40,077 nucleotides of DNA, from NCBI GenBank assembly GCA_016235085.1, contig JACRMA010000030.1:1-40077 (forward strand), written 5' to 3'. Position 1 is the first letter of the stretch. Every line of letters starts with the position of its first letter. Both the position numbers and the translations under genes were made by a program. Below, piece by piece: positions 10,281-35,889 of the stretch. The stretch is from Candidatus Zixiibacteriota bacterium. Lineage in GTDB: Bacteria; Zixibacteria; MSB-5A5; WJJR01. A model generated the notes under the pieces. That model did not search any database. It was not told the origin of the DNA and saw nothing but the letters and a program-made list of their open reading frames with translations.

Positions 10281-10500
10281 CAGCACACCCCGGATCTGCA
10301 GGCCACACACATACCAGCCCAATCACGCAAGGAAGCCTTTTCATCTGGACCCTCCCAGTCTACACATCCCTCTACACTTATGTGGCGCGTTCTATTCCCG
10401 GCCGCTTAACGCCGCAGGCCGCTTGCACGACTAATCCCCATGTGCCATCTTTATCATGAATCTCAGGCACCATACGAGCTTGAACAGGAGGTGTGCGGTG

Positions 10501-11496
10501 AACTGGAAATCCATCCTTGCTACAATCGTCATCGTCGCGATGATCTCATCAACTGCGGTCGCGGGCGAAACTTCATCGCTCAGACCCGTATCGACCTTTT
10601 CAATTGTCGCGCGGGACTCCGTGACCGGCCAGTTGGGCGTCGCGGTGCAATCGCACTGGTTCTCGGTGGGACCGGTCGTGCCGTGGGCCGAGGCCGGCGT
10701 GGGCGCAATTGCCACACAATCATTCGTGAAGATCGATTATGGTCCCGATGGACTCGATCGGTTGCGCAAAGGCGAAACTCCCCGGCAGGCTCTGGACGCC
10801 ATGCTCGCCGCCGACTCCGGGCGTGAGGTGCGTCAGGTGGCGATCCTCGACGCCAGGGGCAATGTCGCGGCGCACACGGGGAACAAGTGCATTATCTACG
10901 CCTCGCACATCACCGGTCCGGGTTTCTCGGTGCAAGCAAACCTGATGGAGGATTCCACCGTGCCCCGCGCCATGGCCAAAGCCTATCGCGAAGCGAAGGG
11001 CCACTTGGGAGATCGCATCCTCGCCGCATTGCGTGCCGCCGAGGGCGAAGGCGGTGACATCCGCGGCCGCCAATCGGCCGCCATCCTGATCGTTGACGGC
11101 CAGCGGCATGAGAAACCCTGGCAGGGGAGGCTGGTCGAGTTGCGGGTGGAAGATCATCCCGATCCGATCGGCGAGTTGTCGCGCTTGTATCGTCTCAACG
11201 AGGCCTACGACTGGATGAATCGCGGCGACGTCTACTCGGAAAAGAAACAATGGGACAGCGCATCGGTAGCCTACGGCAAAGCCGAGAACCTGGCGCCCCA
11301 GATTGCCGAATTGCCGTTCTGGCATGCGACAACACTGGCAAGCGCCGGCCGAATCGACGAAGCCCTGCCAATCTTCGAGCAAGTCTTCGCCAAGGAGCGC
11401 CGCTGGATTCCGCTGGTAAAACGCCTGGTGCCCGCCGGGCTATTGCCGAATGACACGACGTTGATCAATCGGATACTTTCTCGAATACCAAAGTAG
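10501..11496 (+). CDS. Exported DUF1028 family protein (putative Ntn-hydrolase fold)
   Basis: Likely GTG start with signal peptide VNWKSILATIVIVAMISSTAVAGE, then STFSIVARDSVTGQLGVAVQSHWFSVGPVVPWAEAGVGAIATQSFV typical of DUF1028; C-terminal TPR-like segment. Confidence 0.85.
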   Translation, partial: NWKSILATIVIVAMISSTAVAGETSSLRPVSTFSIVARDSVTGQLGVAVQSHWFSVGPVVPWAEAGVGAIATQSFVKIDYGPDGLDRLRKGETPRQALDAMLAADSGREVRQVAILDARGNVAAHTGNKCIIYASHITGPGFSVQANLMEDSTVPRAMAKAYREAKGHLGDRILAALRAAEGEGGDIRGRQSAAILIVDGQRHEKPWQGRLVELRVEDHPDPIGELSRLYRLNEAYDWMNRGDVYSEKKQWDSASVAYGKAENLAPQIAELPFWHATTLASAGRIDEALPIFEQVFAKERRWIPLVKRLVPAGLLPNDTTLINRILSRIPK

Positions 11497-32741: not shown

Positions 32742-32859
32742 AAGTGGAGACACACTGCGCGATTCCATGCGACCCCTCATGTTGTGCGAAGCTCGGGGAA
32801 TCCCGCCATCCGCTGATCCTCACCCGCAAGCAGTCTGCACGCCGTCGCGCGCAGTCTTG

Positions 32860-34428
32860 ATGTCACTCGTGCTTTGCCTCGCCGGCCTGACAACTGCAGT
32901 CCAGGCCGAGGAATCCACGCGGCCAATCGGCCGGATCACCGTCCAGACTCTCAACGTCTACTCGCCCGAAGAAATCGCCAAGGGCTGGCCCTACCGCGTG
33001 ATCAACGCACTCCATTTCCGCACCAAAGAATCAATTATCCGACGGTTCTTGCTTTTCAAAGAAGGCGATACCCTGGCGCCATACTTGGTGACGGAAACCG
33101 AGCGTAATCTCCGCGCCCTCCCGTTTCTGAAGTCCGTGACCATCGCGACTGAGCCTGACGGCGATACCGCGACCACTGTCACAATCACCACTCAGGACAG
33201 CTGGACCACCGAGCCCGCCGTGTCCTTTGAGCTCAAAGGAGGAAAAGCCCTCTACGGTTTCGAACTGAAGGAGAAGAGTCTGTTCGGCACCGGACGCGCG
33301 CTACTGTTCAACTACGACAAGCAACTCGATCGCACGGTGCGTTCCCTGGTCTATCGCGATCCCATCCTTATCGGCCCGTATTGGTATGGAGAGGCATTGT
33401 TCGCGTGGCTTTCCGACGGCTGGGAGAAGGCCGGGCTGATCGAGCGCCCGTTCTACACGTTCACCGCCGGTTGGGCGCTCAGGATGTACTTCGACGATTC
33501 CCGCCAGAGTGCGTGGATCTACCGTGATGCCCGAGTTGTCTCGCAGTTCCGCCAGGCACACACTCAATACGAGGGCCAGGTGGGCCTGGCGCTTTTCGCT
33601 TCCCAAGGCCTCGCCCGCCGGCTGACACTGGGATTCGACGGAATCGATGACCGATTCGACTCAACCCAGTACCACGCGAATGATCTCCTCCCGGGCAATC
33701 GCCGGTTCCGCTACCTGACAATCGGCTATGAAGAAGTTGCCAACGACTACCTCAAACTCAATTACATCAATCGCGACCAGCGTTTCGAAGACATCAACCT
33801 GGGACATCAATTGACCGCGCAGGTTGGTATCTCCCCCAGTGCTTTTGGCACCCCGCGTTCGATCCTCAGATTCACGGCATCCGCACAGCAGGGATTTCGG
33901 CTGGCAGCAAAATCGTATCAACTAACGACGGTGAATTTCGAGTCACGCTGGGACCGCCGTCCCCGAAATACCATTCTCACGGCAACTGCCGGATGTGTTC
34001 TCAAGTTCGAATCGCCGATTTTGCAGACCACCGTTGCCCGGCTGCAATTCAAGCAGGGATGGAATCTGGACTTGGACAAACAATTCTACGCGGATGTAGA
34101 ATACGGACTGCGTGGCTACCGGCCGTATGTCTTCGCGGGGGACATGTCGTTAATCGCGAATCTGGAGCAGAGAATCTTCTATGGTCATGAGCTGCTGCAA
34201 ATCGCCTCCCCCGGCCTCGCGCTCTTCTGCGATATCGGTGCGGCCGGCCGCTCCGGCCAATGGCGCAGCATGAATTTCGCGACCGACATTGGCGCCGGCC
34301 TGCGTCTCGGACTCCCCAGAGCCGCCCAACACAATGTCATCAGGATCGATTTCGCCTACGCCCTCCGCCCCGACCCGCTCGGCCGCAAAGGCTGGCTGGT
34401 CTCCATCGCATCGAGACAAGCTTTTTAG
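32860..34428 (+). CDS. BamA/Omp85-like outer membrane protein
   Basis: Signal peptide MSLVLCLAGLTTAVQAEE; POTRA-like segment then beta-rich domain; FRYLTIGYEEV and long alternating strands; C-terminal Phe. Confidence 0.68.
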   Translation: MSLVLCLAGLTTAVQAEESTRPIGRITVQTLNVYSPEEIAKGWPYRVINALHFRTKESIIRRFLLFKEGDTLAPYLVTETERNLRALPFLKSVTIATEPDGDTATTVTITTQDSWTTEPAVSFELKGGKALYGFELKEKSLFGTGRALLFNYDKQLDRTVRSLVYRDPILIGPYWYGEALFAWLSDGWEKAGLIERPFYTFTAGWALRMYFDDSRQSAWIYRDARVVSQFRQAHTQYEGQVGLALFASQGLARRLTLGFDGIDDRFDSTQYHANDLLPGNRRFRYLTIGYEEVANDYLKLNYINRDQRFEDINLGHQLTAQVGISPSAFGTPRSILRFTASAQQGFRLAAKSYQLTTVNFESRWDRRPRNTILTATAGCVLKFESPILQTTVARLQFKQGWNLDLDKQFYADVEYGLRGYRPYVFAGDMSLIANLEQRIFYGHELLQIASPGLALFCDIGAAGRSGQWRSMNFATDIGAGLRLGLPRAAQHNVIRIDFAYALRPDPLGRKGWLVSIASRQAF

Positions 34429-35049
34429 AATAGGTCCAATTGGCCCTACAGGTCCTATTCTTCCTTCCTTCGGGCGTCGGTCCGCGCTTTGTACAGCCGC
34501 TCCGTGAATCCACCCTCCTTGAGAAAGGCCCGCTCCAACTGCCGGAGCTGCTGATCCAACAGGTAGCAGGTTTGGTGGATGAGGCAGATCACAGTGTTCG
34601 CCGCCACTTCCGCAGGAGCCTCTTCGATATGGGCCCTATAGGTCCTATAGGACCTATCTTCTTCGTAGGCCAATCGCCTCACGGCTTGCGCCGTCGCGTG
34701 GTCTTTCCCCCAGAGCGGCAGATCCCGCTGCCGGAGGAAGTCCTGATAGTCCAGGAGCAGTTCCTCCAGGCTGGCTCGCGCGACACCCACCAGTTTCAGT
34801 TCCGTCTTCTTGGATGTTCCCGAAGCCTGACTTCCCTCAGCGATATTCTGCCGCCCGCTCCGCGCCGACTGTACCATCTGATCATGAGTGCGTGACCGCT
34901 TCTCAATGAAGCGATCACAGAATTTGACGGTGGCGTCGTACACCAGCTCCGACTGCTGAAAGGACTTCAGGCTCTTGTAGCCCCCATGTGCTGGAATGAT
35001 CTCTGCCATGAGTATGGGTCCTATAGGTCCAATAGGTCCTATTCTAAAA
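34423..35049. mobile_element. Putative mobile unit carrying a four-helix-bundle gene
   Basis: 12-bp perfect inverted repeats TTTTAGAATAGG (34423-34434) / CCTATTCTAAAA (35038-35049) and triplicated 9-bp arrays of GGTCCTATA type at both ends and inside. Confidence 0.45.
34455..35009 (-). CDS. Four helix bundle protein (S23/Avd-like) with suffix domain
   Basis: SLKSFQQSELVYDATVKFCDRFIEKRSRTHDQMVQSARSGRQNIAEGSQASGTSKKTELKLVGVARASLEELLLDYQDFLRQRDL is characteristic of this family. Confidence 0.88.
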   Translation of the reverse strand: MAEIIPAHGGYKSLKSFQQSELVYDATVKFCDRFIEKRSRTHDQMVQSARSGRQNIAEGSQASGTSKKTELKLVGVARASLEELLLDYQDFLRQRDLPLWGKDHATAQAVRRLAYEEDRSYRTYRAHIEEAPAEVAANTVICLIHQTCYLLDQQLRQLERAFLKEGGFTERLYKARTDARRKEE

Positions 35050-35118: not shown

Positions 35119-35889
35119 ATGCCCCTCCTCCTCACCATCGACATCGGCAACACGACCACGCAGATCGGCGCCTTTGATGACGACCGTCTGGTGTTCTCAT
35201 TCCGGCTGGCATCGACCCACACACGCACACCCGACGAAGCCGCACTGCTGTTGCGTAACGTGCTGTCTGACGCCGCTGTGCAAACGGCGTCAATTACCGG
35301 AGCAGTTGCCTGCTCCGTCGTGCCGGTGCTGACTCCAGTGATCATCGCGGCTGTGGAATCGACTTGTCGGCTGATCCCGATGCTAGTGTCGCCGCATCTC
35401 AAATTGGCCATCCGTCTCGCTGTGCCCTTCCCTGACCAAGTTGGTGCCGACCGCATCGCCAACGCCGAGGGCTTCTGGGTGGAACATCATCGCTCCGGCA
35501 TCGTGGTCGATTTCGGCACAGCCACCACGTTCGACGTGATCTCCGGCGACGGCGCCTACATGGGCGGCGCCATTGCCCCCGGTCTCGAGACTTCAGCGGA
35601 ACGCCTTTCCCAAAAGGCAGCACAATTGTTCAAAGTCGGAATCGAACCGCCCGCCTCGCCGATCGGGGTCACCACCGAAGAAGCACTGAAGTCCGGACTG
35701 TATTTCGGCGGGATTGGTGCCGTCGATGAAATCGTGCGCCGAATCTCGCTGGCGATGGGCGGCAGCCCCAAGGTGATCGCCACCGGTGGACTCGCATCCG
35801 TAATCTCCAAGGACTCCCAGACAATCCAGGCCGTCGACCCGATCCTGACCCTCAAAGGACTCCGGGCGATCTTCCAGGCCAATAGCTAG
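35119..35889 (+). CDS. coaX: Type III pantothenate kinase
   Basis: MPLLLTIDIGNTTTQIGAFDDD; VGADRIANAEGFW; GIVVDFGTATTFDVISGDGAYMGGAIAPGLETSAERLSQKAAQL. Confidence 0.95.
   Translation: MPLLLTIDIGNTTTQIGAFDDDRLVFSFRLASTHTRTPDEAALLLRNVLSDAAVQTASITGAVACSVVPVLTPVIIAAVESTCRLIPMLVSPHLKLAIRLAVPFPDQVGADRIANAEGFWVEHHRSGIVVDFGTATTFDVISGDGAYMGGAIAPGLETSAERLSQKAAQLFKVGIEPPASPIGVTTEEALKSGLYFGGIGAVDEIVRRISLAMGGSPKVIATGGLASVISKDSQTIQAVDPILTLKGLRAIFQANS

Follow-up and report, generated by a model that had tools for sequence, protein, structure and literature searches.

On balance, the four-helix-bundle gene of the window (the whole stretch of 40,077 nucleotides analyzed) and a family of dispersed short tandem repeats appear to form a two-part system, in which the gene and its cognate repeats resemble RAYT/REP and no transposase takes part. 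Different gene copies were paired with different repeat units, the repeats were dispersed with a bias toward extragenic DNA, array lengths changed by whole 9-bp steps, and the protein was under purifying selection. Arrays were found at free-standing copies of the gene and mostly not at operon-embedded ones. We infer that recognition of the repeats would be the task of the four-helix protein.

Organization of the locus

As described in the earlier note, the gene is bounded by perfect 12-bp inverted repeats (TTTTAGAATAGG at 34423–34434 and CCTATTCTAAAA at 35038–35049), extending to 15 bp with one mismatch; in a repeat search, the arms of the inverted repeat reached 39 nt with 82% complementarity. 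On either side of the gene, a 9-bp unit of the GGTCCTATA type is repeated about three times in tandem (34427–34461 and 35011–35045). Since this unit, designated unit A, is near-palindromic by itself, the inverted arrangement of the repeats is due in part to the unit. A third array lies within the gene (Table 1).

The left repeat had been described as abutting the stop codon of a BamA-like gene; that stop codon (34426–34428) was actually found inside the repeat. The left array thus contains two stop codons, that of the BamA-like gene and, at 34455–34457, that of the convergent four-helix gene, and the four-helix start codon adjoins the right array. The BamA-like label itself was not confirmed, as no Pfam match was obtained for this open reading frame at E ≤ 1e-5. 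No rRNA was detected by Rfam between 33500 and 36200, and the neighbors are protein genes; a known structured RNA at the locus was rejected, as no Rfam match was significant.

Table 1. Features of the four-helix locus and its neighbors in the window.
Feature	Position	Strand	Remarks
Left neighbor, BamA-like ORF (earlier label)	32767..34428	+	converges on the four-helix gene; context only
Left array, about three GGTCCTATA-type units	34423..34461		3' of the four-helix gene; hairpin possible, DNA fold z = -2.7
Four-helix-bundle and suffix-domain gene, 184 aa, S23/Avd fold	34455..35009	-	TIGR04258, TIGR02436, AF2, dN/dS
Internal array, GGTCCTATA unit, in frame	34626..34660		encodes residues ~117–128, between bundle helices 3 and 4
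Right array, about three units	35011..35049		start codon of the four-helix gene lies 1 bp downstream
Right neighbor, coaX (type III pantothenate kinase)	35119..35889	+	context only; orthologues in 8 of 8 relatives searched

Properties of the four-helix protein

The protein scored 86.2 bits against TIGR04258 (cut-off 40) and 32.2 bits against TIGR02436 (cut-off 24), which makes it a member of the NCBIfam "four helix bundle suffix domain-containing protein" families, while its score against Pfam PF05635 was slightly under the cut-off (30.1 vs. 33.8). S23-type families alone matched the gene and no match to Y1 (HUH) transposases was obtained; the array-bounded unit is free of a transposase, as the earlier note had stated.

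The AlphaFold2 model (pLDDT 93) contains long helices at residues 15–34, 40–62, 67–94, and 133–165, and the fourth bundle helix is thus contributed by the "suffix". The residues encoded by the internal array fall between helices 3 and 4 of this model. Among solved structures, the nearest by Foldseek probability were the S23-family proteins 2gsc and 2rld and Avd of diversity-generating retroelements (DGR), with TM-scores by target length of 0.81 for 2gsc (probability 1.00) and 0.74 for Avd (8ub7_B, probability 0.91) and with weak E-values, the best being 0.02. The TIGR matches, the model, and the Foldseek results together support the small S23/Avd-fold protein recognized earlier.

The four-helix protein is under strong purifying selection. 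Relative to the sister genome, dN/dS was 0.04 for its gene and 0.06 for coaX, and the closeness of these values indicates a functional protein. Part of the internal A-type array may be kept as a conserved peptide (RSYxTYxxYIE) and not by selection on DNA.

Dispersal of unit A

Unit A was counted by means of a palindromic pattern, with the reversed pattern as a control, in the source genome (G000), a sister species of the same genus (G001), a member of another genus (G005), and further genomes of the same class. The numbers of matches were 51, 50, 21, and 2 in G000, G001, G005, and G002, with control values of 1, 1, 0, and 0, respectively; the abundance of the repeat in G000 is therefore beyond chance. 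These four genomes contain the A-type gene in an intact or broken form (degraded in G002). The other 54 of the 58 same-class genomes yielded 0–3 matches, so that only G000, G001, and G005 exceeded three, and G003, G004, and G006, which belong to the same family, had neither the A-type gene nor unit-A arrays. Within the class, gene and arrays are very strongly associated.

In G000, unit A occurs at more than 20 places, mostly intergenic, with no four-helix gene beside it. Uniqueness of the repeats, or orthologous loci with the gene and without the repeats, had been named as grounds for abandoning the earlier interpretation. Neither was found: arrays of unit A and of units B and C described below are dispersed in G000, and the orthologue of the same genus has both gene and repeats. 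The location of the A-type gene in G005 differs from that in G000. The G005 copy (L032, contig C70) is disrupted by an insert within its reading frame, and this genome retains its 21 unit-A matches.

Paralogues and their repeat units

Four suffix-domain genes were found in G000, each belonging to a different clade of the family tree. The copy on contig C58 carries arrays of a 9-bp unit B (ATGGGAANN), and the copy on contig C142 carries arrays of a 9-bp unit C (AGTGGACNN). Both units are dispersed in G000, with 32 matches for unit B and 116 for unit C and no control match in either case. For unit B, the two genomes with a B-type gene gave 18 + 14 and 25 + 20 matches, compared to 0–1 elsewhere. 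For unit C, 70 + 46 matches were counted in G000 and 68 + 40 in G001, compared to 0–1 in 26 others, with G002 as an exception. The C-type gene was detected in G000 only; G001 and G002 are draft genomes, and its absence from them is therefore not proved. In G002 (88% complete, 530 contigs), 17 unit-C matches were observed and no C-type gene was found.

The fourth copy (C90, L030) has a 10-bp period, for which no dispersal was seen in a 740-kb sample. GATGGAC from G011 was considered as another dispersed unit and rejected, being present at the G011 gene itself only. The SD-type unit GTCNGAC was clearly dispersed in G090 and G091, whereas in G080 and probably in G078 it was confined to the array of the gene itself; for this reason it was left out as proof of pairing.

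Arrays of the A type can form hairpins, whereas solitary B and C arrays showed no fold. A hairpin as the signal common to all units was consequently rejected, as solitary B and C arrays are not palindromic. At two loci (L028, 2045–2113, and L029, 1653–1816), arrays in both orientations within coding sequence produce long hairpins that look perfect.

Position and conservation of the arrays

When all units are considered, arrays occupy well over 70 places in G000, nearly all solitary and extragenic, compared to only four four-helix genes. The expectation that each repeat pair would bracket such a gene was thus contradicted. Among the dispersed sites, 29 of 37 were extragenic in loci that were 87% coding according to a simple codon model (binomial p = 6e-19), and many arrays followed a stop codon at a distance of no more than 25 bp.

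All 24 array sites tested first could be located in G001, with the array recognizable at most of them. A larger comparison of G000 and G001 gave 37 common arrays, whose lengths differed by 0 (24 arrays) or by exactly 9 bp (13 arrays). Orthologous arrays were located by the same pattern in both genomes, and conservation of the internal motif was therefore not used. Between genera, in a comparison based on genome fragments, at most one of 11 array sites of G005 had flanks matching a sampled array site of G000 or G001.

Species of one genus thus share their array sites, most of which do not recur in another genus; this marks the sites as old within the genus. Judging from these sequence comparisons, the set of arrays would have arisen, or been replaced, after the two genera diverged. 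Nearly all sites being common to the sister species, no recent mobility is indicated there.

A few sites differ between G000 and G001. Within one and the same intergenic gap, G000 has a unit-A array (L235, 7997–8025) and G001 a unit-C-like array (L255, ~13029). At the G001 orthologue of another unit-A site of G000, an open reading frame resembling a RAYT-like Y1 transposase (PNHVH motif) was observed (contig C33, L248, ~10353–11277); this insert bears GC-rich palindromes of its own, of the GGGCGGGTCTTAGACCCGCCC type.

Distribution across phyla

A scan of GTDB yielded 559 relatives, and the best 80 of these, from more than 20 phyla, were analyzed. Arrays with a lag of 9 were enriched at the genes of these best 80 loci, with 34 in 82 kb compared to 16 in 727 kb of flanks, in an association that ignores phylogeny and comes mostly from draft metagenome assemblies. 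No comparable excess was detected at lags 5–8 and 10–15 in the same 80 of 559. The units of these loci varied from locus to locus, and the 5' and 3' arrays of a given locus resembled each other in unit more closely than did arrays from separate loci (permutation p = 5e-5, 10 loci). Arrays on both sides were present in ten of the best 80 loci; the end arrays were direct as often as inverted.

In other phyla, 11 of 40 carrier genomes contained at least 10 A-type arrays and more than three times the control, a combination seen in no same-class genome that lacks the gene. On the family tree, phylum labels are scattered, which suggests horizontal transfer, although paralogy and misbinning in metagenome assemblies weaken this suggestion. 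The family gene was found in one plasmid record, one IMG/VR contig, and no phage; plasmids and phages were rejected as its vehicle, as the family is nearly absent from both. Neither transposases among the recurrent neighbors nor a reverse transcriptase in the 15 largest neighbor clusters were found at the best 80 of the 559 loci.

Interpretation and alternative explanations

In the favored two-part system, a free-standing four-helix gene lies between arrays of a 9-bp unit and has a further array in the segment coding for the loop that joins helices 3 and 4. The unit of the gene is seeded as arrays of two to four units in intergenic DNA, often right after stop codons, and each free-standing paralogue tends to own a unit. 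With paralogue-specific units, one genome can hold several independent gene–repeat pairs. The S23/Avd-like protein, probably oligomeric, would recognize its own unit, either as DNA or as RNA, which may explain why arrays spread or persist. A host nuclease, replication slippage, and gene conversion are candidates for producing or relocating the arrays.

Chief among the alternatives is a regulatory or chromosome-organizing role, which we consider rather unlikely. The arrays would then be selected, non-mobile sites in DNA, or in RNA 3' ends, bound by the four-helix protein as a nucleoid, termination, or RNA-stability factor, which would maintain these sites across the genome and autoregulate its own gene through them. 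The conservation of orthologous sites in the sister species, the location of many arrays at most 25 bp downstream of a stop codon, the ability of A-type arrays to form hairpins, and the strong purifying selection on the protein all agree with such a role. It fits less well with an array set that varies between genera (at most one of 11 G005 sites matching a sampled site), with pairing set up repeatedly by different units in one genome, and with the patchy occurrence of the gene across phyla. An improbable reading is the mobile cassette suspected in the earlier note, in which the gene and its terminal inverted arrays would move together like a transposon or a 23S rRNA intervening sequence (IVS). 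The layout of an IVS, with an S23 open reading frame between complementary ends, is indeed matching (PMC4990558), both sides of the gene carry arrays in the window as well as in ten GTDB loci, and the gene is scattered over phyla and differently located in G005. However, no movement of the cassette was seen, its location being unchanged in the sister species. No target duplication was observed, the arrays at the two ends of GTDB loci have a direct orientation as frequently as an inverted one, and neither a transposase nor more than a trace of the family on plasmids and phages was found. The cassette accounts for the bounded gene and not for the large excess of solitary arrays, since G000 has only four genes and arrays at far more than 70 places; what is dispersed is the array and not the gene cassette. 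The earlier interpretation is supported with respect to an S23/Avd protein bounded by arrays, without a transposase and with repeats that are not unique, and is not supported with respect to a dispersed cassette. No clean empty bamA–coaX junction exists in the relatives compared, since these lack the bamA-like gene as well.

Two further explanations were considered. That the arrays belong to another, unlinked element such as a RAYT, with the four-helix gene among them by chance, is very improbable: the RAYT-like Y1 transposase frame at one unit-A site would suit it, but that insert bears different palindromes, transposases are missing among the recurrent neighbors of the best 80 of 559 loci, and locus-specific units with three separate pairings are not expected of chance neighbors. 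It is hardly credible that the arrays are a simple-sequence artefact, namely minisatellites born by slippage whose likeness to the low-complexity linker of the gene is coincidental. Shifts of array length in whole units are those expected of slippage, whereas near-zero controls, unit-specific co-occurrence with the gene, and the restriction to period 9 contradict an artefact.

Relation to known systems

REP/RAYT is the classic example of a bacterial gene seeding intergenic repeats of its own. The case was first argued from similar data, that is, from a gene located between its own repeats and from repeat abundance that tracks the gene (PMC2817692). REP/REPIN-RAYT and the four-helix system share a gene flanked by two copies of the cognate repeat, a dispersed and extragenic repeat whose count follows the gene, and units that vary among gene copies. 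In contrast, the four-helix protein is an S23/Avd helical bundle and the RAYT protein a Y1 (HUH) transposase; the unit is a 9-bp tandem repeat, often not palindromic although unit A nearly is; an array inside the gene occurs in the four-helix system only; and the four-helix protein evolves slowly, whereas rayt genes evolve fast.

The IVS of 23S rRNA, for example in Coxiella burnetii, contains an S23-family open reading frame between complementary ends (PMC4990558). Both features are shared with the four-helix locus, as are an unexplained origin and mobility. Unlike an IVS, the four-helix locus lies outside an rRNA gene, its ends are 9-bp arrays, its repeat occurs genome-wide, and its protein is under strong purifying selection. 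DGR Avd has the fold in common with the four-helix protein (TM-score by target length 0.74, 8ub7_B), and a DGR also has a linked reverse transcriptase and template/variable repeats; no reverse transcriptase was present in the 15 largest neighbor clusters of the best 80 of 559 loci. In contrast to insertion sequences and MITEs, the four-helix locus shows no target duplication, and its sites are shared with the sister species.

In the open-access literature, covering no preprints and few subscription journals, no published link of the TIGR02436/TIGR04258 family to dispersed 9-bp repeats was found. If the two-part system is real, it would be a second, unrelated fold with a REP/RAYT-like signature in many phyla, and repeat families would be maintainable without a transposase. 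It could also offer a handle on the role of the S23/IVP protein, on the spread of IVSs, and on the four-helix genes in cas and hsd operons. The pairing predicts that each protein binds its own 9-bp unit and not the units of its paralogues.

Free-standing and operon-embedded copies

Clustering of neighbors showed that many of the best 80 of 559 copies are located in defense operons. In type I-C cas loci of several phyla, the four-helix gene occupied a fixed place, flanked by cas7 and cas4 and sharing their strand (L058, L060, L065, L069, L070, L076, L077, L084, L101, and L122). In type I restriction–modification loci, it adjoins hsdM, hsdS, or hsdR (L093, L094, L095, L096, L129, L132, and L033). 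S23-type (23S_rRNA_IVP) genes within CRISPR-cas loci have been reported previously (PMC3936711), and 23S_rRNA_IVP also appears as a legend entry in another publication (PMC10910872); the parts of these two sources consulted do not mention arrays, a free-standing form, or a fixed cas7–cas4 place in type I-C.

A more far-reaching proposal, which we put forward only tentatively, is that the non-enzymatic S23/Avd protein might be the specificity and propagation factor of widespread transposase-free repeats. New pairs would arise by drift of the 9-bp unit, and the copies in type I-C CRISPR and type I restriction loci would be domesticated descendants that have lost their arrays.

Based on homology to nine representative genes only, 28 of the 80 copies were accompanied by cas or hsd genes within the retrieved flank, though not in every case immediately beside them, and the other 52 were not. 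Arrays were present at 33 of the 52 free-standing copies compared to 8 of the 28 operonic ones (p = 0.005), and 19 free-standing copies were without an array at the threshold used. Arrays on both sides were observed at 10 of 52 and 0 of 28 copies, respectively (p = 0.012). Genomes whose retrieved copy was closely operonic also contained fewer A-type arrays (p = 0.006, uncorrected for unit differences). In G011, a genome of the same class as the source genome, the copy adjoins hsdM and its unit is not dispersed, which matches the operonic pattern.
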